Assembly: GCA_021730945.1 (NCBI GenBank)
Contig: JAKFYH010000032.1
Location: forward strand, 1 to 64,000
Length of the DNA: 64,000 bases
Source of the DNA: Acidobacteriota bacterium
GTDB lineage: Bacteria; Acidobacteriota; Vicinamibacteria; Vicinamibacterales; UBA2999
Direction of reading: 5' to 3'
Position 1 is the first letter of the stretch. Each line of letters starts with the position of its first letter. Under the pieces are notes generated by a model that was not told where the DNA came from, did not search any database, and was given only the letters and a program-made list of their open reading frames with translations. Made by a program: the position numbers and the translations under genes. Positions 855 through 56,910 of the stretch are shown here, in pieces.

Positions 855-870
855 GAGGAATCCTTTCAAC

Positions 871-910: not shown

Positions 911-911
911 A

Positions 912-917
912 TATACT
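912..917 (+). promoter_or_regulatory. Candidate -10 box TATACT
   Basis: TATACT lies 16 bases before the ATG at 934 and next to the palindromic repeat. A GGGAGGA ribosome site (924-930) sits between it and the start. No convincing -35 is visible, because the repeat occupies that place. Confidence 0.35.
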
Positions 918-933
918 TCCGCCGGGAGGAGCT

Positions 934-2154: not shown

Positions 2155-2157
2155 CGC

Positions 2158-3492: not shown

Positions 3493-3513
3493 GGCCGCCG
3501 ATTAGAGTTCGCG

Positions 3514-3535
3514 CAGCCGCAGTTCGCGGCTGTTT
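3514..3535 (+). terminator. Candidate hairpin terminator
   Basis: Perfect 7-bp stem CAGCCGC / GCGGCTG with an AGTTC loop, followed by TTT, 22 bases after the stop of the M20 gene. Confidence 0.5.
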
Positions 3536-3608
3536 GACGTTTGAATCTGCGGCCCGTCGGTCGGCCTGTAGTACCCTGAGATTTCCCTTTTCCAGGATTT
3601 GTCACGCA

Positions 3609-35806: not shown

Positions 35807-37050
35807 TACACGCCTCCCGCGAACTTCACGACGCCGTCGGCCAGCACCTTCCAGCCGCGGATGTGATTGAAGTGATAGGCGGTGGCCGGCCCGCGCGCGG
35901 CCATCAACACCTCGAGCGTCGGCTGGGTGTAGCCGGTCTCGTCAGTGGCGCGGCTCATGAGGGTGGCTTCGCCGCCCTTCCACTCGAACGGATAGCGGAA
36001 CCGGGTGTGGCACTTGGGCAGCACCGGTTCATCAAGACGCGCGGCCTGCCAGGTCTTGCCGCCATCGACGCTGATGTCGACCTTGGCGATCTTGCCGCGG
36101 CCGCTCCACGCGATGCCGCGCACTTCCCACCAGCCCGGGCCGGTCAGCTTGTCGGGGAAGGCCGGTTCGGTGATGAGCGACTTGGCGTCCATGTCGAGAC
36201 TGAAAATGCGGGCCGTGCCGTCGGGCAGAGGATCGGTGTACTTGGAGGTTTCTTCGCGCGTCATGAAGGGCTGGTCGGCCACCTCGATGCGCCGCAGCCA
36301 CTTGATGCTGGCGTTGCCTTCGACGCCGGGCAGGAACAACCGGACCGGATAGCCTTGCTCGGGACGCAGCGGCTCGCCGTTCTGCCCGTAGGCGATCAGC
36401 GCATCGTCGAGCGCCTTTTCGATCGGGACGCTGCGGGTCATCACGGCGGCGTCCATGCCTTCAGCGAGGATCCACTTGGCCTTCGGCGAGACCCCGGCCT
36501 CGCGCAGCAGCGTGGCGAGCGGCACGCCGGTCCATTCGCTGGTGCTGGTCAGGCCATCGACCTGTTGCGGGGTGACGTCGGTCTGGTTGCCTTCGCGGCG
36601 ATAGGCGCGCCCGCCGTTACCCGAGCACTCCATCATGCGGATGATCGAGCGGCCGGGGAAGCGGCGAAGATCGGCGAGGGTGAACATCAGCGGCCGGTCG
36701 ACCATGCCGTGGATCAGCAGGGAGTATTGCTGCGGATCGATGGCCGGCACCCCGCCGTGATGGCGTTCGAAGTGCAGGTCGGCCGGCGTGATGATGCCGT
36801 CGAGATCCTGGAGCGGCGTGAGGCTCGACGTGCGCCGTTCGCCGAGCGACACCCGTTTGGGCTTTTCGAACGGCGAGCGACTGCCGACGTCCGTGCTTAG
36901 TGGGCCTTGGACCTTGGTGGGGTCGGCCGGCACCTTGGGACGAGCCGCCTGATCGGCGCTTTGACCCGCAATCGGCAGCGCCGCGCCGACAATTCCGGCC
37001 GTGCCGGCTGCCAAAACCCGTCGCCGCGAGATGGTTTTCCGCCCGTCCAT
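35806..37050 (-). CDS. SoxC-like sulfite dehydrogenase, molybdenum cofactor subunit
   Basis: 414 residues from the ATG at 37050, which has GAGGAGGT upstream; a longer open frame reaching 38367 is spurious. The Tat signal SRRRVLAAGTAGIVG fits folded export with the molybdenum cofactor. The cofactor Cys is C142 in MMECSGNGGRAY. The C-terminal dimerisation domain includes WSGRGKIAKVDISVDGGKTW. SoxC/SorA enzymes oxidise sulfite or a sulfane intermediate and pass electrons to a cytochrome, here encoded just downstream. No other sox genes are in the window, so simple sulfite oxidation is the likelier role. Confidence 0.9.
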   Translation of the reverse strand: MDGRKTISRRRVLAAGTAGIVGAALPIAGQSADQAARPKVPADPTKVQGPLSTDVGSRSPFEKPKRVSLGERRTSSLTPLQDLDGIITPADLHFERHHGGVPAIDPQQYSLLIHGMVDRPLMFTLADLRRFPGRSIIRMMECSGNGGRAYRREGNQTDVTPQQVDGLTSTSEWTGVPLATLLREAGVSPKAKWILAEGMDAAVMTRSVPIEKALDDALIAYGQNGEPLRPEQGYPVRLFLPGVEGNASIKWLRRIEVADQPFMTREETSKYTDPLPDGTARIFSLDMDAKSLITEPAFPDKLTGPGWWEVRGIAWSGRGKIAKVDISVDGGKTWQAARLDEPVLPKCHTRFRYPFEWKGGEATLMSRATDETGYTQPTLEVLMAARGPATAYHFNHIRGWKVLADGVVKFAGGV

Positions 37051-37064
37051 GCGACCTCCTCGAG

Positions 37065-37157
37065 TGGATGATTGGGGCCAGGCCCCCAAAATCACCGTAC
37101 AACTTGCTGAAATGCGGCCAAAATTGGTGATTTTGGGGGCCTGGCCCCAATCATCCA
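37065..37157. repeat. Perfect 32-bp inverted repeat with GGGGCCAGGCCCC core
   Basis: Arms at 37065-37096 and 37126-37157 are exact complements; the spacer is 29 bases. The core GGGGCCAGGCCCC is itself nearly palindromic. It sits between the divergent SoxC-like and DUF1592 genes. Confidence 0.95.
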
Positions 37158-37302: not shown

Positions 37303-39801
37303 ATGAAGAAATTGCTGCTCGTTGCACTGATCGGGTTGGTCGCGGGGCTCGGCTTCCGCGTGTCTGCGGAACCGCGCCCGCTGCAGTCGCCTGCGCCCGC
37401 GCCGGCATCCAAGCCGGCCCCACAGCCGGCTGGTGCGGTTCAGCCGGCGCTGGCCGTGGCTCACGCCACCACTGCGCTGCACGAATCGCAGACCGCACTG
37501 GTCAAGCAGTACTGCGCCACCTGCCACAACGATCGCAACCAGAACAACGCCGGCGGACTCTCGCTGGCCGCGTTTGATGCCTCGCGCGTCGGACACGACG
37601 CCGAGGTGGCCGAGATCGCAGAGAAGATGGTCCGCAAGTTGCGCTCGGGCATGATGCCGCCGTCTGGCGCGCGCCGGCCCGAGGCGTCGGTGCTGACCGC
37701 ACTGGCCACGTCGATGGAAGCGCGCCTCGACCAGGCCGCCGCGCTCGATCCCAATCCCGGCCGCCGGCCGTTCCAGCGACTCAATCGCGCCGAGTACGCG
37801 CGGGCCGTCGCCGGCATGTTCGATCTCGACGTTGACGTCTCCGCGTTCCTGCCGCCCGATCAGATCAGTGCCGGCTTCGACAACGTCGCTGATGTGCAGG
37901 GCTTCTCGGCGACCTTGATGGAAGGCTACCTGCGCGCGGCCAGCCGCATCAGTTCGCTCGCGGTCGGCGACCCCAAGGCCGGCGCCGCCGAAGTCACCTA
38001 CAAGGTGCCGCGCACCGGCTCGCAGATGGAGCACGTGGACGGCGCGCCGTTTGGCACCCGCGGCGGCATCTCGGTGCTGCACACGTTTCCCGCCGACGGC
38101 GAGTATCGCTTCCGCATGCAGTTGCACTCGATCCCGACCGGCCAGTTGTTCGGCAGCACGGTGCGCGGCGAGATCCTGGAAGTGTCGATCGACGGCGAGC
38201 GGGTCGCCGCGCTCGAGATTAACCCGCGCATGAGCGAGTCCGATCCGAATGGCATGAACCTGACGACCCCGAAGTTTCATGTCAAGGCGGGCACCGCCCG
38301 GCTGTCGGCGGCCTTTGTGCAGCGCTTCGACGCGGTGCCCGACGACTTGATGCCGCCGATTGCCCACTCACTGGCCGACAGCCAGATTGGCGCCGGCTTC
38401 GGGATCACCACGCTGCCGCACCTGCGCGAGTTCGCGGTGGGCGGGCCGTTCACCGTCACCGGCGTGTCCGATACCGCCAGCCGCCGGCGGATCTTCACGT
38501 GCCGGCCGACCTCGGCGGCCGAAGAAGCACCGTGCGCGGCCGAGATCATTCGCGGCCTGGCGACACAGGCCTATCGCGGGCCGGTGTCGGCGCAGGACTT
38601 CGACGGCCTCCATCGCTTCTTCCAGCAGGGGCGCACCGAAGGCGGCGACTTCGAATCGGGCATTCGTCTCGCGGTGCAGGCGATCCTGGCCAGTCCCAAG
38701 TTTCTCTTCCGCCTGGAGGAAACGCCGGCGACCGTGCGGCCGGGGCAAAACTATCGCATCACCGACCTCGACCTAGCGTCACGCCTGTCGTTCTTCCTCT
38801 GGGGCACCGGACCGGACGCGACCCTGGTGAAGGTGGCCCGGCAGGGCACGCTGCGCACACCGGGCGTGATGGCGGCGCAGGTCAAGCGCATGCTGGCCGA
38901 TCCGAAGGCCGAGGCGCTGTCGACCCGCTTCGCCTCGCAGTGGTTCCGCCTGCAGGATCTCGACAAGATCAATCCCGACGCGCTGCTGTTTCCCTATTAC
39001 GACTTCAAGCTCGCCGAAGCGCTCAAGCGCGAGACCGAGTTGTTCTTCGACAGCATCGTCCGTGACGACCGCCCGATCGTTGACCTGCTGACGGCGGATT
39101 ACACCTACGTCAACGAGCGGGTGGCCAGGCACTACGGTCTGCCGAACGTGAACGGACCGGAGTTCCGCCGCGTGGCGTTGACCGACGACAGCCGCCGCGG
39201 CCTGCTCGGCCAGGGCAGCATCCTGGCGCTCACCTCGGTGGCCGACCGCACGTCGCCGGTGCTGCGTGGCAAGTGGGTGATGGAAGTGCTGCTGGCTTCA
39301 CCGCCGCCGGCGCCGCCGCCTAACGTGCCGCTGCTCGAGGAAACCAAGGGCGACGATGGCGGGCGCCAGTTGACCACGCGCGAGCGCATGGAACAGCACC
39401 GCGCCAACCCGGCCTGCACCTCGTGCCACAAGGTAATCGACCCGATCGGCCTGGCGCTCGAGAACTTCGATGTCACCGGCAAGTGGCGCATTCGCGACAA
39501 CGGCGCGCCGGTGGATCCGGTCGGCGACCTCTACGACGGCACCAAGATGACCGGGCCGGCCGGCTTGCGGGCCGCCCTGCTCAAGCACCAGGACATGTTC
39601 CTCCTGAGCTTCACCGAACGCCTGATGACCTACAGTCTCGGGCGGCGCGTGGAGTACTTCGACATGCCGGCGATTCGCCGGATCATGCGAGACGCGGCCA
39701 AGAGCAACAACCGCTTCTCGGCGTTCGTCATGGGCATCGTGACGAGCCAGGCATTTCAGATGAGCAAGGCCGAACCGGTCGAAACGACAGTGGAGAGATA
39801 G
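37303..39801 (+). CDS. DUF1592-type di-CxxCH protein, copy 1
   Basis: 832 residues from the ATG at 37303, which opens a signal peptide (KKLLLVALIGLVAGLG); an in-frame start 99 bases upstream lacks these features. The N-terminal Planctomycete-type cytochrome site is CATCH (C71, C74, H75). Then come the DUF1587, DUF1595, DUF1592, DUF1588 and DUF1585 regions in the usual order (NRAEYARAVAGMFDLDVDV; LASRLSFFLWGTGPDATL; LTADYTYVNERVARHYG; NPACTSCHKVIDPIG; LMTYSLGRRVEYFDMPA). A second CxxCH lies at C705-H709. It is probably periplasmic or outer-membrane associated and redox active. The function is unknown. DUF1552 follows five bases after the stop. Confidence 0.85.
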   Translation: MKKLLLVALIGLVAGLGFRVSAEPRPLQSPAPAPASKPAPQPAGAVQPALAVAHATTALHESQTALVKQYCATCHNDRNQNNAGGLSLAAFDASRVGHDAEVAEIAEKMVRKLRSGMMPPSGARRPEASVLTALATSMEARLDQAAALDPNPGRRPFQRLNRAEYARAVAGMFDLDVDVSAFLPPDQISAGFDNVADVQGFSATLMEGYLRAASRISSLAVGDPKAGAAEVTYKVPRTGSQMEHVDGAPFGTRGGISVLHTFPADGEYRFRMQLHSIPTGQLFGSTVRGEILEVSIDGERVAALEINPRMSESDPNGMNLTTPKFHVKAGTARLSAAFVQRFDAVPDDLMPPIAHSLADSQIGAGFGITTLPHLREFAVGGPFTVTGVSDTASRRRIFTCRPTSAAEEAPCAAEIIRGLATQAYRGPVSAQDFDGLHRFFQQGRTEGGDFESGIRLAVQAILASPKFLFRLEETPATVRPGQNYRITDLDLASRLSFFLWGTGPDATLVKVARQGTLRTPGVMAAQVKRMLADPKAEALSTRFASQWFRLQDLDKINPDALLFPYYDFKLAEALKRETELFFDSIVRDDRPIVDLLTADYTYVNERVARHYGLPNVNGPEFRRVALTDDSRRGLLGQGSILALTSVADRTSPVLRGKWVMEVLLASPPPAPPPNVPLLEETKGDDGGRQLTTRERMEQHRANPACTSCHKVIDPIGLALENFDVTGKWRIRDNGAPVDPVGDLYDGTKMTGPAGLRAALLKHQDMFLLSFTERLMTYSLGRRVEYFDMPAIRRIMRDAAKSNNRFSAFVMGIVTSQAFQMSKAEPVETTVER

Positions 39802-39806
39802 CAACC

Positions 39807-41216
39807 ATGGAATACATCACGAAGAAGCACCTGTCCCGCCGTACTGTTCTGCGCGGCCTCGGCGTCACCATGGCTCTGCCGCTGCTCGATGCGATGGTGC
39901 CGGCGCAAACCCTGCTCGCCCAGACCGCGGCCGCCGGCAAGGTGCGGCTGTCAGCGATCGAGATGGTGCACGGCTCGGCCGGCGCGACCGTGTTCGGCGC
40001 CAGCAAGAACCTGTGGTCGCCGGCGGCGGAGGGCACGGCGTTCGACCTGAGCCCCGGCGCACTGTCGCCGCTCGAGCCGTTCCGTGACTACCTCACCATT
40101 GTCAGCAACACCGACGTGCGCAACGCCGAGGCGTTTTCGCTGCCGGAAATCGGCGCCGACCACTTCCGGTCGAGCGCGGTGTTCCTGACCCAGGCGCATC
40201 CCAAGAAGACGCAAGGGTCCGACGTGCACGCCGGCACCTCGCTCGATCAGATCTACGCGCAGAAATTCGGCCAGGACACCGCGATTCCGTCGATGCAGTT
40301 GAGCATCGAGACGGTCGATCAGTCGGGCGGCTGCGCCTACGGTTACAGCTGCGCCTACACTGACAGCATCAGCTGGGCGTCGCCGAACCAGCCGCTGCCG
40401 ATGATTCGCGACCCGCGCGCCGCGTTTGACTCGCTGTTCGGCGTCGGCGCCACGCCGGCCGAACGCGCCGCGCACCGCAAGACCGACAAGAGCATCCTGG
40501 ACTGGGTCAGCGGCGAAGTGGCGCGGTTGCAGAAAGACCTGGGCGCCGGCGATCGCGCCCGCCTGGGCTCGTTCCTCGAGGAAGTGCGCGAGGTCGAACG
40601 CCGCATCCAGCGCGTCGAGGCGCATAACGCGTCGGGCGAAGCGCGCGAGTTGCCCGAGGCGCCGATCGGCGTGCCGGATGCCTTCGACGAGCACGTCAAG
40701 CTGATGCTCGACCTGCAGGTGCTGGCGTTTGCCACCGATGTCACCCGCGTGTTCTCGTTCAAGATGGGCCGCGACGGTTCGGCGCGGGTCTACCCGCAAA
40801 GCGGCGTCCGTTCCGCCTTCCACCCCGCGTCGCACCACGGCGAGCGCGAGGACCGCGTGACCGATTTCATGAAGATCAACCGGTATCACGTGAGCATGAT
40901 TCCCTACTTCCTCGAGAAGCTGAAGAACACGCCCGAGGGCGACAAGAACCTGCTCGATAACACCGTCGTGATCTACGGATCGCCGATGGGCAACTCGAAC
41001 GTGCACAACCACAAGCGCTGCCCGCTGTTCATCGCCGGCAAGGGCGGTGGCGCGCTGCGCGGCAACCTGCACCTCAAGGCCGCCGACGGCACGCCGATGG
41101 CGAACGTCATGCTGGCGTTGATGCAGGACATGGGCCTCACCGACGTGACGAGCTTCGGCGACAGCACCGGCCGCTTCGAGCTGAAGTCGCTTCCGGCGGC
41201 GACGGCGGCGCGGTAA
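39807..41216 (+). CDS. DUF1552 Tat-exported protein, copy 1
   Basis: 469 residues from the ATG at 39807, five bases after the preceding stop; longer frames lie inside that gene. It begins with a Tat-type signal (LSRRTVLRGLGVTMALPLL). The DUF1552 body is recognisable by SAIEMVHGSAGATVFGA, SSAVFLTQAHPKKTQGSDV, the repeated GGCAYGYSCAYTDSISWASP and HNHKRCPLFIAGKGGGAL. DUF1552 proteins almost always accompany DUF1592-type cytochromes; no reaction is known. Cysteines in CAYGYSC and RC are kept in all three copies here. Confidence 0.85.
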   Translation: MEYITKKHLSRRTVLRGLGVTMALPLLDAMVPAQTLLAQTAAAGKVRLSAIEMVHGSAGATVFGASKNLWSPAAEGTAFDLSPGALSPLEPFRDYLTIVSNTDVRNAEAFSLPEIGADHFRSSAVFLTQAHPKKTQGSDVHAGTSLDQIYAQKFGQDTAIPSMQLSIETVDQSGGCAYGYSCAYTDSISWASPNQPLPMIRDPRAAFDSLFGVGATPAERAAHRKTDKSILDWVSGEVARLQKDLGAGDRARLGSFLEEVREVERRIQRVEAHNASGEARELPEAPIGVPDAFDEHVKLMLDLQVLAFATDVTRVFSFKMGRDGSARVYPQSGVRSAFHPASHHGEREDRVTDFMKINRYHVSMIPYFLEKLKNTPEGDKNLLDNTVVIYGSPMGNSNVHNHKRCPLFIAGKGGGALRGNLHLKAADGTPMANVMLALMQDMGLTDVTSFGDSTGRFELKSLPAATAAR

Positions 41217-41374
41217 GACGGAGAGATTAGAGCCACGGAGGACCGAGGGCACGGAGCAGATCCTTGGAAGCGCCCGGTGCCGCGAATCGGCGGCCGGTGT
41301 TTTGAAGGCAGCTTTTCCGACAGCTCTGCGTTCTCTGTGGCGAGTGTTCGTGGGTCAGTGACTGGGGCAGGCAT
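41217..41374. repeat. Intergenic element A, 158 bases, with weak inverted repeats
   Basis: Contains CCACGGAGGACCGAGG near the left and TTCTCTGTGGCGAG near the right, plus GTGCCGCGAATCGGC and GGTGTTTTGAAGG in the middle. These middle blocks are also in element B (52761-52919). No gene is seen. Confidence 0.6.
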
Positions 41375-43177
41375 ATGCGCAAAGTGATTCAGGGGTTCGG
41401 GTTGGTTGGCATTCTCGCTGTCACGCTGTCGGTGATGCTCGGCGCTGCCGCGGCGCCGGTGGCCGATGCGGCGATGAAGCGCGACAAGGAAGCCGTGCGC
41501 ACATTGCTTAAAGACGGCGCCGACGTCAACGCGGCGCAGGGCGACGGCATGACCGCACTCCACTGGGCCGCGCGCAATGGCGACGCCGAACTCACGCAGA
41601 TGCTGCTGTTCGCCGGCGCCAACGTCAAGGCGAGTACGCGCCTGGGTGGCTACACGCCACTGCTGCTGGCGGCTGAACGGGGCCACGCTCCGGTGATTGC
41701 GGCCCTGCTGGCGGGCGGCGCCGACGCCAAGGTCGCCAACGCCCTCGGCACGACGCCCCTGATGCTGGCAGCTTCAGCCGGTAACGCCACCGCCGTGACC
41801 ACGCTGATCGAAAATGGCGCCGAAATCGAAGCCCGGGAGAAGACGTTCGGGCAGACGCCACTGATGTTCGCCACGGCCAACAACCGCGTCGAAGCGATCA
41901 AGGCGCTCGTCAAGGCCGGCGCCGACCTCAAGGCCACCTCGAAGGTGGTCAACGTCGGCAGCCTCAGTGGCATGGAGCAGGAGTTTCTGGCGCAGGCATC
42001 AGGCAGCGGCGCGCAGCCCGGTGGCGGCGGCCAGGGCCGTACCGGCCAGGTCGTGCCTTCAGGCACGGCACCGGCGGCGGCCGCAGCCACGCCACCTGCG
42101 GCCCCAGCCGGCGCGCCTCCCGCCGGTGGCGGTGGTCGGGGCCGTGGCGGCATGGGCACGCCCGGCATCGAGCGCCCGTACTTCTATAACGAATTGATTG
42201 GCACGCAGGGCGGCGTGACGGCATTGATGCTGGCCGCGCGTGGCGGCTACGCCGATGCGGTGAAGACGCTGGTCACCTCCGGCGCCGACGTCAACCAGGT
42301 GTCGGCCGGCGACAAGACCAGCCCGCTGTTGATTGCGACGATCAACGGCCAGTTCGACCTGGCGCAGTGGCTGCTCGAGCAGGGCGCCAACCCCAACGCG
42401 GCCGCCGCCAACGGCGTGACCCCGCTGTATGCGGCGCTGAACGTGACCTGGGCGCCGCGAGCGCTCTATCCGCAGCCGCGCGCCTACAACCAGCAGCAGA
42501 CCACCTACCTGTCGTACATGAAGGCGTTGCTCGACAAGGGCGCCGATCCGAACCTGCGGTTGACCCGCAAGGTGTGGTACTCGGAGTACAACTTCGACCT
42601 GGCCGGGGTCGACGAAATCGGCGCGACGCCGATGTGGCGCGCCGCGTTTGCCGGCGACGTCGCCGCGATGACGCTGTTGATGGAGTACGGGGCCGACCCC
42701 AACATTTCCACCATGCGGCCAGCCGGCCGCCAGCGGCTGGGTGATGCGACCGAGGTCCGCCAGGGCGCGGACGTGTCGTCGATGCCTCCCGTGCCGCTCG
42801 GCGGTCCCGGTGTGCCGGTGCTGCAGGCTGCTTCGGGTGTGGGCTTTGGCGAAGGCTTCGCCGCCAACTCGCACATTCACTCGCCGGCCGGCTTCCTGCC
42901 GGGCATCAAGTTCATGGTCGAAGTGGCCGGTGCCGACGTCAACGCGGTCGATCACGACGGCAACACGGCGCTGCATCACGCCGCCGCGCGTGGCGACAAC
43001 GAGTCGATTCTGTATCTCGTCTCAAAGGGCGCCGACGTGACCAAGGTGAATCGTGAAGGCCAGACCGTGGCCGACATGGCCAACGGCCCCGTGCAGCGGA
43101 CTCAGCCCTATCCGGAAACCCTGCAACTGCTCGAAAAGCTGGGATCGAAGAACAATCACAAGTGCGTGTCCTGTTGA
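41375..43177 (+). CDS. Secreted ankyrin-repeat protein with C-terminal CxxC, copy 1
   Basis: 600 residues with a signal peptide (VIQGFGLVGILAVTLSVML, cleavage near AAAA). Ankyrin repeats occupy about 35-195 (DGADVNAAQGDGMTALHWAA) and again about 275-585. A low-complexity Gly/Pro/Ala linker (about 210-268) separates them. The last residues are NNHKCVSC, a terminal CxxC (C597, C600) shared by the two other ankyrin copies. Bacterial ankyrin proteins with signal peptides act in the periplasm or outside, often binding protein partners. Its position after DUF1552 suggests a partner of the cytochrome pair. Confidence 0.85.
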   Translation: MRKVIQGFGLVGILAVTLSVMLGAAAAPVADAAMKRDKEAVRTLLKDGADVNAAQGDGMTALHWAARNGDAELTQMLLFAGANVKASTRLGGYTPLLLAAERGHAPVIAALLAGGADAKVANALGTTPLMLAASAGNATAVTTLIENGAEIEAREKTFGQTPLMFATANNRVEAIKALVKAGADLKATSKVVNVGSLSGMEQEFLAQASGSGAQPGGGGQGRTGQVVPSGTAPAAAAATPPAAPAGAPPAGGGGRGRGGMGTPGIERPYFYNELIGTQGGVTALMLAARGGYADAVKTLVTSGADVNQVSAGDKTSPLLIATINGQFDLAQWLLEQGANPNAAAANGVTPLYAALNVTWAPRALYPQPRAYNQQQTTYLSYMKALLDKGADPNLRLTRKVWYSEYNFDLAGVDEIGATPMWRAAFAGDVAAMTLLMEYGADPNISTMRPAGRQRLGDATEVRQGADVSSMPPVPLGGPGVPVLQAASGVGFGEGFAANSHIHSPAGFLPGIKFMVEVAGADVNAVDHDGNTALHHAAARGDNESILYLVSKGADVTKVNREGQTVADMANGPVQRTQPYPETLQLLEKLGSKNNHKCVSC

Positions 43178-43187
43178 GACCGAGAGC

Positions 43188-45677: not shown

Positions 45678-45693
45678 ATCGGAGGAGAGGCTG

Positions 45694-47106
45694 ATGTTCA
45701 TCACCAAGAAGCACGTATCCCGCCGCGCCGTTCTGCGCGGGCTGGGAGTGACGATGGCGCTGCCGATGCTGGAGGCGATGGTGCCGGCGCGCACCGTGTT
45801 CGCCAAGACAGCCGCGGGCAAGGTCCGTTTGGCCGCCATTGAAATGGTGCATGGCTCGGCCGGGGCGACCAAGTTCGGCCTGGAAAAGAACCTGTGGTCG
45901 CCGGCGGCGGTGGGCACCGGCTTCGACCTGTCGCCGACCAGCCTGGCGCCGCTCGAACCGTTCCGCGATCACCTGACCATTGTCAGCAACACCGACGTCC
46001 GTAACGCCGAGGCCTTCGAGCTGCCCGAAATTGGCGGCGACCACTTCCGGTCAAGCGCGGTGTTCCTGACCCAGGCGCACCCGCTGCAGACCCAGGGGTC
46101 GGGCGTCCGTGCCGGCATCTCCATCGACCAGCTCTATGCCCAGAAGTTCGGGCAGGAGACCCCGATCCCGTCGATGCAGTTGTGCATCGAGGCGGTCGAC
46201 CAGGCCGGTGGCTGCTCCTACGGTTACTCGTGCGTCTACACCGACACCATCAGCTGGGCCGGTCCCAACTCGCCGCTGCCGATGATTCGCGATCCGCGCC
46301 TGGCCTTCGATCAGCTGTTCGGTGTCGGCGCCACGCCCGAAGAGCGCGCCATCCGCCGCGCCGAGGACAAGAGCATCCTCGACCTGATCAGTGCGCAACT
46401 CGGGCGGCTGAACAAGGAGATCGGCGCCGCCGATCGCGTCCGCCTGTCGAACTACCTGGACGAAGTGCGCGAGATCGAGCGCCGCATCCAGAAGGTCGAG
46501 GCCTACAACAAGAGCGGGGAGGTCCGCGAGATGCCGACCTCGCCGGTGGGCGTCCCCGACTCGTTCGACGACCACGTCAAGCTGATGTTTGACCTGCAGG
46601 CGGTGGCGTTTGCGTCGGATACCACGCGCATCTTCTCGTTCAAGATGGGCCGCGACGCCTCGAGCCGCGTCTATCCGACCAGCGGTGTCACCACCGGGTT
46701 CCATCCGGCGTCGCACCACGGCGATCGCGAAGACCGCATCCTGGACTTCGCCAAGATCAACAAGTACCACGTCGGCATGCTGCCTTACTTCCTGCAGAAG
46801 CTGAAGGAGACGCCCGACGGCGAGAGCAACCTGCTCGACAACACGCTGGTGGTCTACGGCTCGCCGATGGGCGACTCGAACATCCACAACCACAAGCGGT
46901 GCCCGCTGTTCTTCGCCGGCAAGGCGGGTGGGGCGCTCAAGGGCGGGCTGCACCTGAAGGCGGCCGACGGCACACCGATGGCCAATGTCATGCTGAGCGC
47001 GATGCACGGCCTCGGTCTGGACGAAGTCAAGAGCTTCGGCGACAGCACCGGCACCTTCAACCTGACGACGGCGCCCGACGCCACGGCTGCGGCCGCGAAG
47101 GAGTAA
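45694..47106 (+). CDS. DUF1552 Tat-exported protein, copy 2
   Basis: 470 residues. GGAGGAGAGG precedes the start 16 bases after the DUF1592 stop. The Tat signal is VSRRAVLRGLGVTMALPML. Body motifs match copy 1: AAIEMVHGSAGATKFG, GGCSYGYSCVYTDTISWAG and HNHKRCPLFFAGKAGGAL. The position between cytochrome and ankyrin is the same as in the other two cassettes. The substrate or ligand is unknown. Confidence 0.85.
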   Translation: MFITKKHVSRRAVLRGLGVTMALPMLEAMVPARTVFAKTAAGKVRLAAIEMVHGSAGATKFGLEKNLWSPAAVGTGFDLSPTSLAPLEPFRDHLTIVSNTDVRNAEAFELPEIGGDHFRSSAVFLTQAHPLQTQGSGVRAGISIDQLYAQKFGQETPIPSMQLCIEAVDQAGGCSYGYSCVYTDTISWAGPNSPLPMIRDPRLAFDQLFGVGATPEERAIRRAEDKSILDLISAQLGRLNKEIGAADRVRLSNYLDEVREIERRIQKVEAYNKSGEVREMPTSPVGVPDSFDDHVKLMFDLQAVAFASDTTRIFSFKMGRDASSRVYPTSGVTTGFHPASHHGDREDRILDFAKINKYHVGMLPYFLQKLKETPDGESNLLDNTLVVYGSPMGDSNIHNHKRCPLFFAGKAGGALKGGLHLKAADGTPMANVMLSAMHGLGLDEVKSFGDSTGTFNLTTAPDATAAAAKE

Positions 47107-47116
47107 AGGGATCGTC

Positions 47117-48793
47117 ATGCTGCGAGCAAAACTGTTCGGAAGCCTGGGACTCGCGCTCTGCCTGACGGTGGGGACGGGCGCCCAGCAGACCACCTCGGTG
47201 GCCAAGGCCGCGATGGACGGCGACCGTGAGGGCGTCCGCGCGCTGCTCAAGAAGGGCCTCGACGTCAACGAAGCGCAGGGTGACGGCACCACGGCCCTGC
47301 ACTGGGCCGCCATGAAGGGCGACGCCGACCTGGCACAGATGCTGATCTACGCCGGCGCGAATGTGCGGGCGACGACGCGGCTCGGTGCGTATACACCGCT
47401 CTATCTTGCGGCCAAGGGCGGCTATCCGGCGGTGGTGGCTGCGCTGCTGGCGGCCGGCGCCGACGCCAAGGTTGCCACCACCAACGGCACGACGCCGTTG
47501 ATGATTGCGGCCGCGGCCGGCGACACCCGCTCGATCACCTTGCTGGTGGAGAACGGCGCCGAGATCAATGCCAGGGACGGCGCCAAGGGAGAGACCCCGC
47601 TGATGTTTGCCGCCGCCTTCAATCGCACCGATGCGGTGAAGCTGCTGCTGGCGCGCGGCGCCGACCACAAGGCGACCACCAAGGTGGTGGACCTGTTCGC
47701 GCTGACCGCGCCTGAAGAAGAGGCCATGGCTCGCCAGGTGCCCGGTGGCGCGGCCCGCCCGGCGGCCCGGCCGGCCGATGTCGCCGGCGCGACCCGGGGC
47801 TATCGTTACAACGAACTGATCAGCTCGCAGGGCGGGCTGAGCGCGATGCTGTTTGCCGCCCGCCAGGGCTACGCCGACACGGTGAAGGCCCTGGTCGACG
47901 GCGGTGCCGACTTGAACCAGTTGAACGCCGGCGACCGGACCAGCCCGCTGGTGATGGCGATCATCAATGGCCACTTCGACCTGGCGACCTACATGCTCGA
48001 GAAGGGCGCCAATCCCAACATCGCCGCGTTTAACGGGGTGACGCCGCTCTACGCCGTGCTGAACATCCAGTGGGCGCCCAAGTCGCTGTATCCCAGCCCG
48101 AAGGCGTATCAACAGCAGACGACGACCTACCTTGATCTCATGAAGACCTTGCTCGACCGCGGCGCCGATCCCAACGCGCGGCTGCAGCGCAAGGTGTGGT
48201 ACCAGGCGTTCAACTCCGACTTTGCCGGCGTCGACGAAAGCGGCGCCACGCCGTTCTGGCGCGCCGCCTACGCCAACGACGTCGCGGCAATGAGACTGCT
48301 GGTTTCGTTTGGCGCCGACCCGGCCATTCCGACCATGAAGCCGGCCGGCCGGCCGTTTACGGGCGAAGGCATCCGCCAGGTGCAGGACCTCTCCGGCGTG
48401 CCGCCGGTGCCCTACGGCGGTCCGGCGGTCTATCCACTGCACGCCGCCTCTGGCGTCGGCTACGGCGAAGGGTTTGCCGCCAATTCTCACCGCTATGCGC
48501 CGACGGGGTTCCTGCCGGCAATCAAGTACCTGGTGGAAGAGCTCGGCGCCGACGTCAATGCCACCGATCATGAAGGCAACACGCCGGTTCACCTGGCCGC
48601 CTCGCGCGGCGACAACGAGTCGATTCTCTTCCTGGTCTCGAAGGGCGCCGACGTCACGCGCGTGAACCGCGAGGGCAATACCACGGTCGACATCGCCAAC
48701 GGCCCCGTGCAGCGCACGCAGCCCTATCCGGAAACCATCAAGCTGCTCGAGAAGCTCGGCGCCAAGAACAATCACAAGTGCATCACATGCTAA
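47117..48793 (+). CDS. Secreted ankyrin-repeat protein with C-terminal CxxC, copy 2
   Basis: 558 residues, the shortest of the three because the central linker is only about 30 residues. The signal peptide (RAKLFGSLGLALCLTVGTG) is weaker than in copies 1 and 3. Ankyrin repeats lie at about 25-200 and 230-545. It ends NNHKCITC (C555, C558). It begins ten bases after DUF1552 copy 2 without the extra intergenic element seen before copies 1 and 3. Its last seven bases overlap the start of DUF1592 copy 3. Confidence 0.85.
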   Translation: MLRAKLFGSLGLALCLTVGTGAQQTTSVAKAAMDGDREGVRALLKKGLDVNEAQGDGTTALHWAAMKGDADLAQMLIYAGANVRATTRLGAYTPLYLAAKGGYPAVVAALLAAGADAKVATTNGTTPLMIAAAAGDTRSITLLVENGAEINARDGAKGETPLMFAAAFNRTDAVKLLLARGADHKATTKVVDLFALTAPEEEAMARQVPGGAARPAARPADVAGATRGYRYNELISSQGGLSAMLFAARQGYADTVKALVDGGADLNQLNAGDRTSPLVMAIINGHFDLATYMLEKGANPNIAAFNGVTPLYAVLNIQWAPKSLYPSPKAYQQQTTTYLDLMKTLLDRGADPNARLQRKVWYQAFNSDFAGVDESGATPFWRAAYANDVAAMRLLVSFGADPAIPTMKPAGRPFTGEGIRQVQDLSGVPPVPYGGPAVYPLHAASGVGYGEGFAANSHRYAPTGFLPAIKYLVEELGADVNATDHEGNTPVHLAASRGDNESILFLVSKGADVTRVNREGNTTVDIANGPVQRTQPYPETIKLLEKLGAKNNHKCITC

Positions 48794-51309
48794 ATAAGAT
48801 TTTCGTTCGTTCCCTGGCCGTCTCGGCGGTGGCCGTCGGTCTCGCGGCGTCAACCCTGGCCCAGGCGCCACGCCCGGCAGCGCCCGCTGCGGCCGCACCG
48901 GCATCGCCGCAGGCCGCGATGAAACAGGCGCCGGCGGCGGTCAAGCCGGCGGCGTCGCATGCGGCGGCCGCCACGACCATGCTGCCTGAAGAGCAGACCG
49001 CGCTGGTCAAGCAGTACTGCGCCGGCTGTCACAGCGAGCGTGGCAAGGCCGGCGGCTTGTCGCTGGCCGCGTTTGACGCCGCCACGCTCGATCAGCACGG
49101 CGAGACCGCCGAGAAGATGATTCGCAAGTTGCGCGCCGGCATGATGCCGCCCTCGGGTGCCCGCCGGCCCGAGCCGGCCGTGTTGACCGGGCTGGCCGCG
49201 GCCTTCGAGTCGCGCATGGACAAGACGGCGGCGCTCAATCCCAATCCGGGCTCGCGTCCGTTCCAGCGTCTCAATCGCGCCGAGTACGCCAACTCGGTCA
49301 AGGACTTGCTGGCGGTTGACGTGGATGTCACGGCCTACCTGCCACCCGACACCATCAGCCACGGCTTCGACAACGTCGCCGACGCGCAGACCTTCTCGCC
49401 GACCTTGATGGACGGCTACCTGCGGGCGGCCAGCCAGATCAGCCGCCTGGCGGTGGGCGATCGCCAGGCCTCGGCCACCTCGACCACCTACAAGATTGCC
49501 CGCGCCGCGTCGCAGATGCGGCGGGCCGACGGCGCGCCGATGGGCACCCGCGGCGGCACCTCGGTGGTTCACACGTTCCCGGCCGACGGCCACTACGTGT
49601 TCAAGACCTCGCTGCACTACGAGCCGCTGGGCGGCCTGGCCGGCCGCAATACCATGACCGCCTACGGCCTCACCGAGCAGGTCGAGGTGTCGGTCAATGG
49701 CGAGCGCGTCGCCTTGTTCGACCTGAACACGCGCATGAGCGAGACCGACCCGAAGAACAGCCTTGAATTGCAGACGCCACCGGTGCACGTCAAGGCCGGT
49801 CCGCAGCGCATCACCGCAGCCTTCATCCAGCGCCTGGACGGCCCGGTCGACGACCTGCTGATGCCGCTTGAGAACACACTGGCCGATGTGAGCATCACGT
49901 TTGGCATCACCATGCTGCCGCACCTGCGCGACTTCGTGGTGCAGGGGCCGCTCGATGTGACCGGCGTGTCCGACACCCCGAGCCGCATGAAGATCTTCAG
50001 TTGCCGGCCGACCAGCGCCGCCGAAGAGGAATCGTGCGCGGCCGAGATCGTCAAGCAACTGACGACGCGGGCGTTCCGCGGCGCGCCGAGCGCGGCCGAC
50101 CTGCAGGATGCGATGAAGTTCTACGAACAGGGCCGCCAGAAGGGCGGCTTCGAGCCTGGCATCCGGATGGCCGTGCAGTCGATCCTGATGAGCCCGCGCT
50201 TCCTGTTCCGTCTGGAAGAGCAGCCGGCCGGCGTCAAGACCGCGACCTATCGCATTGCCGACGAAGATCTGGCGTCGCGGCTGTCGTTCTTCATGTGGGG
50301 CACGGCGCCCGACGCCGAACTGGTGAAGGCGGCGCAGGTCGGTGCGCTGCGGACGACGGCCGGCATCGAGAAGCAGGTGCGGCGGATGCTGACCGACCCG
50401 CGCGCCGAAGCGCTGTCGACGCGGTTTGGCTCGCAGTGGCTGCGGCTGCAGGATCTCGACAAGATCTTCCCGGACTACCTGCTCTATCCGCAGTACGACG
50501 ACACGCTGGCGCGGGCGATGAAGCGTGAAACCGAACTCTTCTTTGACAGCATCGTCCGCGAGGACCGCAAGGTCACGGACCTGCTGACCGCCGACTACTC
50601 GTTTGTCAACGAGCGGCTGGCCAAGCACTACGGCATTGCCAACGTCATGGGGAGCGCGTTCCAGCGGGTCAGCCTGCCGCCGTATCGCCGCGGCCTGCTC
50701 GGCCAGGGCAGCATTCTGACGCTGACCTCGGTGGCCGACCGCACCTCGCCGGTGCAGCGCGGCAAGTGGGTGATGGAAGTGCTGTTGGCCTCGCCGCCGC
50801 CGCCGCCGCCCCCCAATGTCCCGTCGCTTGATGATTCGGTCAAGGCATCGGAAGGCGGCAAGATGCTGTCGACCCGCGAGCGCATGGAAGAGCATCGCAA
50901 GAACCCGGCCTGCACCTCGTGTCACAAGGTGATCGATCCACTCGGCCTGGCGCTCGAGAACTTCGACGTCACCGGCGCGTGGCGGATCAAGGACAACGAG
51001 GTGCCGGTGGATGTGGTCGGCGACCTCTACGACGGCACCAAGATGGACGGTCCGGGCGGCCTGCGCGACGCGCTGTTGAAGCACCAGGACGTGTTCCTGA
51101 CCGGCTTCACTGAGAGCCTGATGACGTATGCGCTGGGTCGCCGCGTCGAATACACCGACATGCCGGCGATTCGCACCATCGTGCGCAATGCGGCGAAGGG
51201 CAATAACCGCATCTCGGCGTTTGTCATGGGAGTGGTCAACAGCCAGGCCTTCAAGCTGGGCGTGACCGATACGGGTAAGGAACGCCGCGCGACCGACGTC
51301 GCGCGCTAG
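48787..51309 (+). CDS. DUF1592-type di-CxxCH protein, copy 3
   Basis: 840 residues from the ATG at 48787 (a GTG at 48778 is also in frame). The start overlaps the ankyrin stop. A signal peptide (FVRSLAVSAVAVGLAASTL) is followed by a long Ala/Pro linker, CAGCH (C78, C81, H82) and the DUF1587-1595-1592-1588-1585 order. The second site is CTSCH (C709, C712, H713). The middle carries about 10 extra residues (GGLAGRNTMTAYGLTEQV) not in copies 1 and 2. Confidence 0.85.
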   Translation: MLNKIFVRSLAVSAVAVGLAASTLAQAPRPAAPAAAAPASPQAAMKQAPAAVKPAASHAAAATTMLPEEQTALVKQYCAGCHSERGKAGGLSLAAFDAATLDQHGETAEKMIRKLRAGMMPPSGARRPEPAVLTGLAAAFESRMDKTAALNPNPGSRPFQRLNRAEYANSVKDLLAVDVDVTAYLPPDTISHGFDNVADAQTFSPTLMDGYLRAASQISRLAVGDRQASATSTTYKIARAASQMRRADGAPMGTRGGTSVVHTFPADGHYVFKTSLHYEPLGGLAGRNTMTAYGLTEQVEVSVNGERVALFDLNTRMSETDPKNSLELQTPPVHVKAGPQRITAAFIQRLDGPVDDLLMPLENTLADVSITFGITMLPHLRDFVVQGPLDVTGVSDTPSRMKIFSCRPTSAAEEESCAAEIVKQLTTRAFRGAPSAADLQDAMKFYEQGRQKGGFEPGIRMAVQSILMSPRFLFRLEEQPAGVKTATYRIADEDLASRLSFFMWGTAPDAELVKAAQVGALRTTAGIEKQVRRMLTDPRAEALSTRFGSQWLRLQDLDKIFPDYLLYPQYDDTLARAMKRETELFFDSIVREDRKVTDLLTADYSFVNERLAKHYGIANVMGSAFQRVSLPPYRRGLLGQGSILTLTSVADRTSPVQRGKWVMEVLLASPPPPPPPNVPSLDDSVKASEGGKMLSTRERMEEHRKNPACTSCHKVIDPLGLALENFDVTGAWRIKDNEVPVDVVGDLYDGTKMDGPGGLRDALLKHQDVFLTGFTESLMTYALGRRVEYTDMPAIRTIVRNAAKGNNRISAFVMGVVNSQAFKLGVTDTGKERRATDVAR

Positions 51310-51321
51310 TAGTGGCAGGAG

Positions 51322-51341
51322 GGCGGTACTGCAATACCGCC
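51322..51341. repeat. Short hairpin GGCGGTACTGCAATACCGCC
   Basis: A 7-bp perfect stem (GGCGGTA/TACCGCC) with a six-base loop in the 47-base gap between DUF1592 copy 3 and DUF1552 copy 3. The ribosome site GTAGGAGCAGAG follows, so it may tune expression of the second gene. Confidence 0.5.
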
Positions 51342-51356
51342 GTAGGAGCAGAGACG

Positions 51357-52760
51357 ATGTACATCACGCAGAAGCACATTTCCCGCCGCACGGTGCTCAA
51401 GGGCGTCGGCGTCACCATGGCGTTGCCATTCCTCGAGGCCATGGTCCCGGCCCGGGCCACGTTTGCCCAGGCCAGGGGCAAGGTCCGCCTGGCGGCCATC
51501 GAAATGGTGCATGGCTCCGCCGGCAGCACGGCGTTCGGCATCAAGAACAACATGTGGGCACCGGCCGCGGTGGGCCGCGACTTCGACCTGTCGCCGAGCA
51601 GCCTGGCGCCGCTCGAGCCGTTCCGCAACGACCTCACCATCATCAGCAATACCGACGTGCGCAATGCCGAGGCCTTCACCGCCCCGGAAATTGGCGGCGA
51701 CCACTTCCGCTCGAGCGCGGTGTTTCTCACCCAGATGCACCCCAAGCAGACGCAGGGGTCCGACGTGCTGGTCGGGACCTCGCTCGACCAGTTCTACGCG
51801 CAGCGCTTCGGCCAGACCACGGCCATCCCTTCGATGCAGTTGTGCATTGAGAACGTGGACCAGGCCGGCGGCTGCTCGTATGGCTATTCGTGCACCTACA
51901 CCGACTCGATCAGCTGGGCGGCGCCCGATCAGCCGCTGCCGATGATCCGCGATCCGCGCACCGTGTTCGATCAGTTGTTCGGCGTGGGCGCCACGCCGGC
52001 CGAGCGCCAGGAGCGCCGCGCCGAAGACAAGAGCATCCTCGACTGGCTGGGCAGCGCCGTGACCCGCCTCAACAAGAACCTGGGCGCCACCGATCGCGCG
52101 CGCCTGGCCGACTACCTGGAGGACGTGCGCGAGATCGAACGCCGCATCCAGCAGGTCGAGGCAGCCAACAGCAAGGGCGAGCAGCGCGAACTGCCCGGGG
52201 CGCCGGTCGGCGTGCCCGACTCGTTCGAACAGCACGTTAAGCTGATGTTCGACCTGCAGGCGCTGGCGTTTGCCTCGGACACGACGCGGGTGTTCGCCTT
52301 CAAGATGGGCCGCGACGCCTCCAACCGCGTCTACCCGGACAGCGGCTACAAGGCGGCGTTCCACTCCGCATCGCATCACCAGGATCGCGACGAACGGATC
52401 ACCGACTTCGCCAAGATCAACAAGTACCACATCAGCATGCTGCCGTACTTCCTGACCAAGCTGAAGAACACGCCGGACGGCGACAGCAACCTGCTGGACA
52501 ACACGCTGGTGCTCTACGGTTCGCCGATGGGCAACTCGAACGTGCACAACCACAAGCGCTGCCCGTTGTTCCTGGCCGGCCACGCCGGTGGCGCGCTCAA
52601 GGGCGGCCTGCATCACAAGGCGGCCGACGGCACGCCGATGGCGAATGTCATGTTGTCGGTCGCGCACCTGCTGGGCCTGGACGACTTCAAGACGTTCGGC
52701 GACAGCACCGCGGCCTACGACCTCAACACCGTGCCGGCCACCACGGCGGCGGCTGAGTGA
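51357..52760 (+). CDS. DUF1552 Tat-exported protein, copy 3
   Basis: 467 residues from the ATG at 51357; a longer frame to 51312 includes the hairpin and is unlikely. The Tat-type signal is ISRRTVLKGVGVTMALPFL. Motifs are AAIEMVHGSAGSTAFG, GGCSYGYSCTYTDSISW and HNHKRCPLFLAGHAGGAL. Apart from the hairpin gap it has the same neighbours as copies 1 and 2. Confidence 0.85.
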   Translation: MYITQKHISRRTVLKGVGVTMALPFLEAMVPARATFAQARGKVRLAAIEMVHGSAGSTAFGIKNNMWAPAAVGRDFDLSPSSLAPLEPFRNDLTIISNTDVRNAEAFTAPEIGGDHFRSSAVFLTQMHPKQTQGSDVLVGTSLDQFYAQRFGQTTAIPSMQLCIENVDQAGGCSYGYSCTYTDSISWAAPDQPLPMIRDPRTVFDQLFGVGATPAERQERRAEDKSILDWLGSAVTRLNKNLGATDRARLADYLEDVREIERRIQQVEAANSKGEQRELPGAPVGVPDSFEQHVKLMFDLQALAFASDTTRVFAFKMGRDASNRVYPDSGYKAAFHSASHHQDRDERITDFAKINKYHISMLPYFLTKLKNTPDGDSNLLDNTLVLYGSPMGNSNVHNHKRCPLFLAGHAGGALKGGLHHKAADGTPMANVMLSVAHLLGLDDFKTFGDSTAAYDLNTVPATTAAAE

Positions 52761-52919
52761 CAGATTAGAGACAGGAAGTTGGCCACCGAGGACACAGAGA
52801 GCACAGAGAAACCAGGCCTCTAAACGCCAGTGCCGCGAACCGGCAGACGGGTGTTCAGAAGGATTGGCTCTCGGTCCGCGGTGTCCTCTGTGGCCAAAGT
52901 ACGTGACAGGGATACTCAT
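52761..52919. repeat. Intergenic element B, 159 bases, with strong inverted repeats
   Basis: TTGGCCACCGAGGACAC (52779-52795) pairs with GTGTCCTCTGTGGCCAA (52881-52897), 16 of 17 positions. The middle GTGCCGCGAACCGGC and GGGTGTTCAGAAGG match element A (41217-41374). No gene is seen. Confidence 0.75.
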
Positions 52920-54635
52920 ATGCGAAAAGTGATTCGAGGTTCGGTGGCGGCGGGCGTGATGGCACTCGGCCTGTCGGTGATGCTGGCTGCGGCGACGGCT
53001 GATGCTCCGGTTGCGGAGGCGGCCGCTCGCGGCGACATGGCAGCGGTGAAGGCGCTGCTGAAGTCGGCGTCCGACGTCAATGCCGCGCAGGGCGACGGCA
53101 TGACGGCGCTGCACTGGGCGGCCATGAACGGCGACCTCGAAATGTCGCAGATGCTGGTGTTTGCCGGCGCCAACGTGCGCGCGACCACGCGCCTGGGCAG
53201 CTACACACCGCTGTTTCTAGCCAGCCAGCAGGGGCACGCGCCGGTGATCGAGGCCTTACTGAAGGCCGGCAGCGACGTCTCGGCCGGCACCCCGAATGGC
53301 ACCACCCCGCTGATGGTGGCCGCGGCCGCCGGTAGAGTCGACGCCGTGAAGGCCCTGGTGGATGCCGGTGCCGAGGTGAACGCCAAGGACGGCGTGCGCC
53401 AGCAGACGCCGGTGATTTACGCCGCCGCCGCCAATCGCGCCGACGTGATCACCTACCTGGCCAGCAAGGGCGCCGACCTCAAGGCGCACAGCAAGGTGTC
53501 GGACCTTGCCAACCTCACCCGCGAGGGCAACGGCTTTGGCGGCAATCCGCAGGTGCCTGGTGCGCCCGCCGGTGGCCCGCCCGCCGCCGCTGCCGCCGGT
53601 GCGGGCCGCAAGCCACCCATGCCTGGCGTCGATCGCAACTACCAGCTCAACGAGCTGATTAATGCCCACGGCGGCCTCACGCCGCTGCTGTTTGCGGTCC
53701 GCCAGGGCTACATGGAATCCACCTCGGCGCTGCTCAAGGCCGGCGCCGATGTCAACCTGGTGTCGGCCGGCGACAAGTCCAGTCCGTTGGTCATGGCGGT
53801 GATCAATGGCCACTTCGATCTTGCCCAGATGCTGCTCGACCACGGGGCGAACCCCAACCTGGCCAGCGTCAACGGCGTCACCCCGCTGTACGGCGTGCTG
53901 AACGTGGAGTGGGCGCCCAAGGCGCTCTATCCGCAGCCGCGGGCGCACATGCAGCAGAAGGTCGGCTATCTCGAGTTGATGCACAACCTGATCGAGAAGG
54001 GCGCCGACGTCAACGCGCGCCTGAAGATGAAGGTGTGGTACTCGGGTTACAGCTTTGACCTGTCCGGTGTCGACGAGATTGGCGCCAGCGTGTTCTGGCG
54101 CGCCGCCTATGCCAGTGACATCGCGGCCATGCGGATGCTGGTGGCGGCCGGCGCCGATGCCAACGTGCCGACCATCAAGCCCGCCGGCCGTCCGCGCTTC
54201 GGCGATGCCGATGTGCGCGAAGTGACCGACCTGTCGGGCCTGGCGCCCGTGCCCGTGGGCGGGCCGTCCGTGACTCCGCTCCACGCCACCGCCGGCGTCG
54301 GCTACGGCGAAGGCTTCGCCGCCAACTCGCACCGTTTTGCGCCCACCGGCATGATGGCCGCCGTCAAGTACCTGGTCGAGGAACTGGGCGCCGACGTCAA
54401 CGCCGCCGACCACGACGGCAACACCGCCCTGCACCACGCGGCGGCGCGGGGCGACAACGAAATGATCCTCTACCTGGTGTCGAAGGGCGCCAACGTCATG
54501 GCCGTCGATCGCGAGGGGAGAACGACCGTCGACATGGCCAACGGCGCGGTGCAGCGCGTGCAACCCTATCCCGAGACCATCGCCCTCCTGGAAAAGCTCG
54601 GAGCAAAGAACAATAATAAGTGCAAGTCCTGCTAG
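52920..54635 (+). CDS. Secreted ankyrin-repeat protein with C-terminal CxxC, copy 3
   Basis: 571 residues from the ATG at 52920; a longer frame lies inside element B. A signal peptide (VIRGSVAAGVMALGLSVML) is followed by ankyrin repeats at about 30-205 and 240-560. The Gly/Pro/Ala linker is intermediate in length. It ends NNNKCKSC (C568, C571). The N-terminus is nearly the same as copy 1 (MRKVI.G, LSVMLAAA), whereas copy 2 is different. The stop overlaps the GTG of the following DUF5916 gene by 16 bases. Confidence 0.85.
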   Translation: MRKVIRGSVAAGVMALGLSVMLAAATADAPVAEAAARGDMAAVKALLKSASDVNAAQGDGMTALHWAAMNGDLEMSQMLVFAGANVRATTRLGSYTPLFLASQQGHAPVIEALLKAGSDVSAGTPNGTTPLMVAAAAGRVDAVKALVDAGAEVNAKDGVRQQTPVIYAAAANRADVITYLASKGADLKAHSKVSDLANLTREGNGFGGNPQVPGAPAGGPPAAAAAGAGRKPPMPGVDRNYQLNELINAHGGLTPLLFAVRQGYMESTSALLKAGADVNLVSAGDKSSPLVMAVINGHFDLAQMLLDHGANPNLASVNGVTPLYGVLNVEWAPKALYPQPRAHMQQKVGYLELMHNLIEKGADVNARLKMKVWYSGYSFDLSGVDEIGASVFWRAAYASDIAAMRMLVAAGADANVPTIKPAGRPRFGDADVREVTDLSGLAPVPVGGPSVTPLHATAGVGYGEGFAANSHRFAPTGMMAAVKYLVEELGADVNAADHDGNTALHHAAARGDNEMILYLVSKGANVMAVDREGRTTVDMANGAVQRVQPYPETIALLEKLGAKNNNKCKSC

Positions 54636-56902: not shown

Positions 56903-56910
56903 GAGACCCC

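Follow-up and report, generated by a model that had tools for sequence, protein, structure and literature searches.

Why would a bacterium keep the same set of three genes three times in a row, with every copy intact? This question is raised by an array at positions 37,303 to 54,635 of the window, by which we mean the whole 64,000-nucleotide stretch that was analysed (contig JAKFYH010000032.1 of assembly GCA_021730945.1, positions 1 to 64,000), which belongs to an Acidobacteriota bacterium of the Vicinamibacterales (UBA2999). Each repeat, here called a cassette, consists of P, a diheme cytochrome with the domains DUF1587-DUF1595-DUF1592-DUF1588-DUF1585; D, a DUF1552 protein; and A, a secreted ankyrin protein that in nearly all full-length copies carries a CxxC tail. 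P, D, and A very probably work together, because relatives of the bacterium inherit them as one unit.

All nine reading frames are open and lie on the plus strand in the order P-D-A, three times over (the most likely starts were chosen, and coordinates include the stop codons). The first cassette comprises P1 (37303..39801), D1 (39807..41216), and A1 (41375..43177); the second P2 (43188..45677), D2 (45694..47106), and A2 (47117..48793); and the third P3 (48787..51309), D3 (51357..52760), and A3 (52920..54635). From P1 to A3, the intergenic gaps are 5, 158, 10, 16, 10, -7, 47, and 159 nt, the negative value being an overlap of the start of P3 with A2. The strict order and the spacing of 5 to 159 nt or overlap described in the first-pass annotation are hereby confirmed. 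The copies of A are 60-65% identical to each other (the ankyrin proteins are thus related, as the idea of a repeated cassette implies), those of D 72-76%, and those of P 64-66%. With window paralogues only 60-76% identical, the array is not recent, in agreement with the earlier description of an old array with three intact copies. Inside the array, there are 3 candidate promoters versus 1.3 expected, and 9 candidate terminators versus 10.1 expected.

Neither is the order P-D-A due to chance, because the full order lies behind 88 of the 94 testable A genes in related loci. To arrive at these loci, named genome contigs were scanned with the A alignment, giving at least 591 pattern stretches, of which 586 encode a relative (the stretches come from two patterns, so genes are fewer); the best 80, closest to A2, were kept as 74 loci. 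They hold 103 A genes, 94 of them with 1.6 kb of upstream sequence, and among the latter D lies directly upstream in 90 and P comes next in 88, with median gaps of 26.5 nt (P-D) and 20 nt (D-A). The arrangement thus extends well beyond this genome. As for the misses, P is present in L057 and L080, where the chosen starts made genes overlap; in L041 the A frame is broken and D is found at a distance of 439 nt; D is missing from L055 and L092; and in L062 a P-A pair with no detected D (502-5353) stands beside a full P-D-A. Another P follows within 1.2 kb after A on the plus strand in 26 of the 74 loci. An incomplete cassette (P-D without A) was also observed in L044 (11503-15832), next to a complete one. 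The locus titles mostly name Acidobacteria and Gemmatimonadetes, and a few name Cyanobacteria, Acidimicrobiia, Gammaproteobacteria, and Euryarchaeota, titles of metagenome-assembled genomes (MAGs) being unreliable; one locus with a Cyanobacteria title, L039, is part of G124, a genome whose match coordinates equal those of G134, which is listed in the genus of the window.

The bacterium's own genome has eight places with DUF1592 and eight with DUF1552, and members of the A family accompany seven of its eight P-D pairs. These are the three in the window, those on contigs C57, C2, and C36 (the last with a divergent, tail-less form of A), and one that seems to be divided, with its parts at the ends of contigs C64 and C35. 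The remaining pair (L006 5639-8816, on contig C5 of the same assembly, G000) has a divergent, shorter P with a 583-aa open frame and no detected A. In a phylum sample of 119 genomes, DUF1552 (E ≤ 1e-20) occurs in 18 and A (E ≤ 1e-30) in 17, with 16 shared; the Fisher value of 9e-17 for this co-occurrence is too small because the genomes are kin. Among the 66 D places of this sample, at least 25 have A directly downstream (a lower bound, since only part of the candidates was scored in some genomes, e.g., 11 of 65 in G077), 6 have an A close by but placed differently, and for 35 no A was detected within 8 kb. In eight genomes chosen for bearing A, D has A directly downstream at 58 of 87 places: 40 of 44 in seven of them and 18 of 43 in G126. 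This last genome (6.5 Mb, titled Vicinamibacterales, with locus L110) has DUF1552 at 43 places and the A family at 38 merged places, in mixed order, the A-family matches being mostly weak and similar to a distant group B of ankyrin partners. The tailed cassette is rigid, and the DUF1552 family as a whole is not always tied to A.

If the three genes form a unit, they should also share a history. The window, four further loci of its own genome, and the named loci together yielded 97 P-D-A cassettes, 69 of them complete. For these 69, the P, D, and A distance matrices correlate with r values of 0.86-0.89, which 0 of 1999 within-locus shuffles reached for each pair. The three genes thus co-evolve at the level of the single cassette. 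Trees were built for 30 cassettes from loci chosen for arrays and as outgroups. With a support of 100 in the P, D, and A trees alike, cassette 1 of the window forms a clade with L045_1 and L039_1; cassette 2 with L045_2, L038_1, L043_1, L042_1, and L039_2; and cassette 3 with L038_2, L043_2, L042_2, and L039_3. Because numbering starts at the edge of the contig or locus, L042_1, L043_1, and L038_1 come after a first cassette that is cut or absent. The deep branching of some cassettes, e.g., L040_1, L041_1, L044_1, L046_1, and L063_2, differs between trees, with low support in places. The concordance of the three trees, which the first-pass annotation had named as the sign of cassette duplication, holds for the array clades, to which we limit the claim; elsewhere it is made by the distance test.

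In five of eight genomes of the genus, a search with A found three A genes spaced by 5.6-5.8 kb on a single contig; it found pairs on fragmentary contigs in two and a single A in G129. In G028, the one family member outside the genus, the same search found no A. The nine genes were also compared with their orthologues: the ratio of nonsynonymous to synonymous substitutions (dN/dS) is 0.055-0.235 in 21 comparisons (Nei-Gojobori, dS 0.40-0.79). Since each cassette of the window has its own positional orthologues in related species, the array must be older than these species, and all its copies have been kept. Such long retention of three diverged copies under purifying selection fits specialisation without proving it.

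What, then, are the three proteins? In P1, P2, and P3, Pfam finds the five DUF domains in the order given above. Ahead of them, an N-terminal cytochrome domain scores above the cut-off in P1 (PSCyt1) and P3 (Cytochrome_CBB3), and P2 has only CBB3 there, just below the cut-off. P has a Sec-type signal and two CxxCH haem motifs, the latter read in the translation of P1 and present in 69 of 74 full-length P proteins (three motifs in 4, one in 1). By domain order and CxxCH motifs, P belongs with the planctomycete-type cytochromes of the DUF1592/PSCyt3 class. The CCP_MauG profile of diheme peroxidases is absent from the Pfam matches of P at E ≤ 0.001; no fold match is listed for the helical parts of P2, which structure comparison barely tests, and these parts might still share a fold with CCP/MauG. 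The P2 model (41 sequences) has a predicted local distance difference test (pLDDT) score of 83.7 and a predicted template modelling (pTM) score of 0.84. Between the haem domains, residues 223-382 are predicted to form a beta-sandwich like those of the carbohydrate-binding modules (CBM) 36, 35, and 6, and P1, whose fold is taken from its paralogue P2, has the CBM-like part between DUF1587 and DUF1595. Against CBM36, the sandwich reaches Z 9.2 over 107 residues with a root-mean-square deviation (rmsd) of 2.7, where Z 7-8 is typical without a clear match. P is thus modestly CBM-like and might bind a glycan. Foldseek gave no match for P2 below E 0.001, no credible solved structure related by sequence to P or D was found, and neither P2 nor D2 matches any defence model in PADLOC.

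D1, D2, and D3 match the HXXSHH/DUF1552 profile (PF07586) with E values of 8e-85 to 1e-86 and 285.6-291.7 bits (cut-off 30), and the residues of the HxxSHH motif are present as well. All 94 full-length D proteins have a twin arginine within their first 32 residues (SRR in the translation of D1). Owing to this signal of the twin-arginine translocation (Tat) type, D is probably exported in folded form. The D2 model (39 sequences; pLDDT 72.7, pTM 0.79) has the predicted fold of the alkaline phosphatase superfamily: structure comparison gave a best Z of 15.7 over 243 residues with VIA (rmsd 3.7) and 476 of 925 chains at Z ≥ 8, and Foldseek returned sulfatases, LtaS, and nucleotide pyrophosphatases/phosphodiesterases (NPPs), the first match at E 1.8e-4. 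Members of this superfamily have a Ser, Thr, or formylglycine nucleophile and a two-metal set of ligands. Whether or not A is present, H337 and H341 are conserved in all 148 rows of D (135 distinct), H342 in 146, and H117 in 144. Judging from motifs and weak profile alignments, H117 would stand at the place of the sulfatase nucleophile, H337 at that of a metal aspartate, and Pro391-Met392 at that of the second-metal pair, a faint hint that D apparently lacks the usual nucleophile of the superfamily. Two links of D to the tail of A were considered. The pair Cys174/Cys180 occurs with and without the tail, showing no link, and the lineage marks E50, H53, D116, and D321 accompany tailed A in 98 of 98 rows (some of them copies of a single gene from overlapping loci), an association confounded by descent.

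A1, A2, and A3 carry Pfam Ank repeats and, as read by eye, a Sec-type signal peptide. Their most striking feature sits at the very end, where A1 reads HKCVSC, A2 HKCITC, and A3 NKCKSC. Among 105 full-length A proteins from the window and the named loci, 103 have C-x-x-C within three residues of the end; the CxxC tail was not among the search patterns that found these loci. The last Cys is the final residue in 92 of the 103 tailed proteins, the residue two before the first tail Cys is His in 85 (not in A3), and 79 lack any further Cys from residue 31 up to the tail. The two untailed ones come from L085, cut by the contig end, and L110, a tail-less relative. Further afield, two genes of the phylum sample, L014 1006-2841 and L034 826-2700 (both minus strand), cover the whole A model and have D directly upstream and no CxxC; both may help to place the gain or loss of the tail in time. 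A2 matches eight NCBIfam ankyrin models of type IV secretion system (T4SS) effectors, all below their cut-offs. Among the PADLOC models it hits PDC-M72A (E 5.6e-50, over residues 31-189, which lie inside the repeats) as well as Ankyrin and MzaA, with cut-offs not shown, and we read these matches as shared ankyrin repeats. No plasmid copy of A was found at E 1e-40.

The gene unit, co-inheritance, purifying selection, conserved tail, twin arginine, and predicted folds were all computed, and on them a mechanism can be proposed. Each cassette would form one machine of the periplasm or cell surface from three co-inherited parts. In it, P would move electrons and perhaps hold a glycan through its CBM-like sandwich, and D would be the metal-dependent catalytic partner, with an invariant histidine cluster and non-standard chemistry, since its nucleophile and second-metal pair appear replaced. 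A would bind its own P and/or D in the periplasm, its tail handling thiols, haem, or metal of the partner during assembly. By analogy to the ankyrin partners of catalases, and because of the conserved tail, we favour the view that A works in the periplasm as a partner dedicated to P and D, assembling or scaffolding them much as AnkB and Cj1386 do for catalases, a reading that we put a little short of an even chance. The copies in the array would then be specialised versions of the same machine. A bolder form, which we regard as unlikely, would make the cassette a new exported redox enzyme: a histidine-rich, Tat-loaded metal enzyme of alkaline phosphatase fold, wired to a glycan-binding diheme cytochrome, and an ankyrin maturation factor of its own for each copy. 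The tail, which resembles a haem-attachment motif lacking its final His, might in this bolder form dock on its partner or deliver thiol, haem, or metal. The first-pass annotation had proposed an exported redox unit with an ankyrin adaptor, perhaps with different substrates or partners; the cassette is real, has export signals, and is copied as a whole, whereas redox function, adaptor role, and differing substrates are hypothetical parts of that proposal.

Critically speaking, several observations weigh against our proposal. P-D clearly can occur without this A, as the 35 of 66 D places with no detected A within 8 kb illustrate. The distant group-B ankyrin partners have no tail, nor do the full-coverage, intermediate A proteins of L014 and L034; some P-D-A associations thus do without it. 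For D, the Foldseek TM-scores are low (0.36 for the first match), the profile alignments (hhalign) behind the reading of its residues are weak (E 0.0004 and 0.009), and the D2 model has a pLDDT under 55 around H117. A fusion of two cassette parts was not seen in the eight fetched regions, where candidate P-D-A fusions turned out to be long open frames produced by overlapping frames of separate genes. Finally, complex formation, the metal in D, electron flow, and the role of the tail are our inferences.

The surroundings of the array were considered as a clue to its substrate, but no conserved neighbour emerged: the most frequent family is present at 8 of the 74 loci, and mixed functions were seen among the representatives of ten families scanned out of 45 listed. 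Downstream lie two DUF5916 genes on the plus strand, as noted before: one for an outer-membrane-type protein (54620..56902) that overlaps A3, and a second (56797..59112) with a close match (75%) only in L038. DUF5916 stands behind the array in only 4 of the 74 named loci (L038, L039, L040, and L042), with no match in L041 and L043, which have sequence there, and is therefore not part of the general cassette. Upstream, a predicted gene at 33603-35033 matches a cytochrome domain and a copper type II monooxygenase C-terminal domain, both slightly under the cut-off. A sulfite-oxidase-like molybdopterin oxidoreductase (35806-37050, minus strand; Oxidored_molyb and Mo-co_dimer, twin arginine by eye) is divergent from P1, and another molybdopterin protein lies at 60236-62737. 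Between the divergent oxidoreductase and P1 sits a perfect inverted repeat (37065-37157; 32-nt arms, 29-nt loop), the core of which has 10 places in the genome with at most one mismatch (two of them here, reversed control 0), partly as facing pairs; it is perhaps a mobile or REP-like (repetitive extragenic palindromic) element.

Within the array, the D-A linkers of cassettes 1 (41217..41374, 158 nt) and 3 (52761..52919, 159 nt) are alignable, and cassette 2 has 10 nt there. The third linker contains a 30-nt imperfect inverted repeat, and none was found when one was looked for in the first. Words like CCACAGAGGACACAGAG have 7 matches in the window versus 0.14 expected, 4 of them in these two linkers and 3 at 32657-32709; a shorter word of the CCACAGAGGACACAGAG type has 6 places in the genome.

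How else could the association be explained? P and D could be an oxidative glycan-processing pair, for which A is a passive scaffold or a surface or substrate adaptor and to whose glycans the copies are matched. The CBM35/36/6-like domain in P and the fold of D, nearest to sulfatases and phosphodiesterases, speak for it, as do DUF5916 behind the window array and in four relatives and the presence of a TonB receptor and SusD among the ten neighbour families scanned; moreover, one report suggests that PSCyt proteins act in carbohydrate metabolism (PMC5615132). Yet the neighbours are not conserved, even the commonest family being found in only 8 of the 74 loci, and a strict CxxC on a cysteine-poor A exceeds the needs of a passive scaffold. 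We therefore consider this pair possible but doubtful, and hold the same tentative view of the accompanying idea that the CxxC tail serves as a structural zinc site or a disulfide clip. Less likely is that A protects or regulates P-D without a role in assembly, by inhibiting or shielding the pair until substrate arrives or by guarding it from peroxide. There is usually one A per P-D unit, and an ankyrin-catalase operon is peroxide-induced in Leptospira according to PMC7567364, but the ten recurrent neighbour families scanned (of 45 listed) include no peroxide-defence gene.

The remaining two explanations deny any common function, and the conserved arrangement speaks against both. That A is an exported effector aimed at eukaryotes and merely stands beside P-D would suit its matches to T4SS effector models (all far below cut-offs) and the mention of ankyrins in several sponge and coral metagenome papers. 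It accords poorly with the rigid order, the small gaps, and the cassette-level co-evolution, the titles of some carriers describe MAGs from groundwater or Lake Baikal, and no secretion-system gene is among the ten neighbour families scanned; we rate it as very improbable. Least credible of all, to the point of being nearly negligible, is the view that a recently amplified segment carried three unrelated genes along by neutral hitch-hiking. Segment copying would fit the alignable linkers, but the copies are as diverged as described, share their position among species, and are under purifying selection, and the same order recurs in loci titled from two phyla. The assembly or scaffolding role of A thus stays our preferred reading, and it can be set against known systems.

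The predicted sandwich of P2 resembles CBM35/36/6, with Z of only 8-9 and 9-15% identity, and differs from these in being embedded in a cytochrome; it might bind glycans. D shares its predicted fold with the alkaline phosphatase/sulfatase/NPP superfamily, and differs from it by the Tat-type signal and, if the alignments are right, by His at the nucleophile and metal-aspartate places and Pro-Met at the second-metal pair. With the PSCyt/PSD cytochromes of planctomycetes, the cassette has in common that P carries domains of the PSCyt3 (DUF1588) class and that D is DUF1552; here, however, an ankyrin protein is a near-constant third member, and units are often in tandem. For Verrucomicrobia, one paper describes PSCyt2 and PSCyt3 genes as usually adjoining two families of unknown genes (PMC5615132); the names DUF1501 and DUF1552 also occur in that paper, and which of these families goes with which is our own reading. 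It is thus already known that PSCyt genes pair with unknown genes, whereas the triad with A appears new: directed literature searches, which mostly did not cover papers in subscription journals and bioRxiv preprints, found no report of an ankyrin third partner or of the triad. Details added to the first-pass annotation are that A ends in CxxC, that D has a Tat-type signal and a predicted alkaline phosphatase fold, that P contains a CBM-like domain, and that the cassette reaches loci with Gemmatimonadetes titles. The near-constant presence of a third partner, with its short and conserved tail, offers a handle on a machine of three exported proteins encoded in one gene unit, and the array in one genus provides three natural variants for comparing specificity.

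The ankyrin partners of catalases are the analogue on which our reading of A leans. PMC7567364 reports that an ankyrin protein is needed for catalase activity in Pseudomonas and Campylobacter, that ank-katE is an operon in Leptospira, and that AnkB is periplasmic. In AnkB-KatB, Cj1386-KatA, and ank-katE, as proposed here, an ankyrin-repeat protein serves a haem enzyme, and A is likewise an exported ankyrin protein (its signal read by eye) encoded beside a haem protein. A is presumably longer than AnkB and Cj1386, and it differs in ending in CxxC. Its partners are a c-type diheme cytochrome and a protein of predicted alkaline phosphatase fold rather than a catalase, thus making A an analogue of these catalase partners and not a member of their group.

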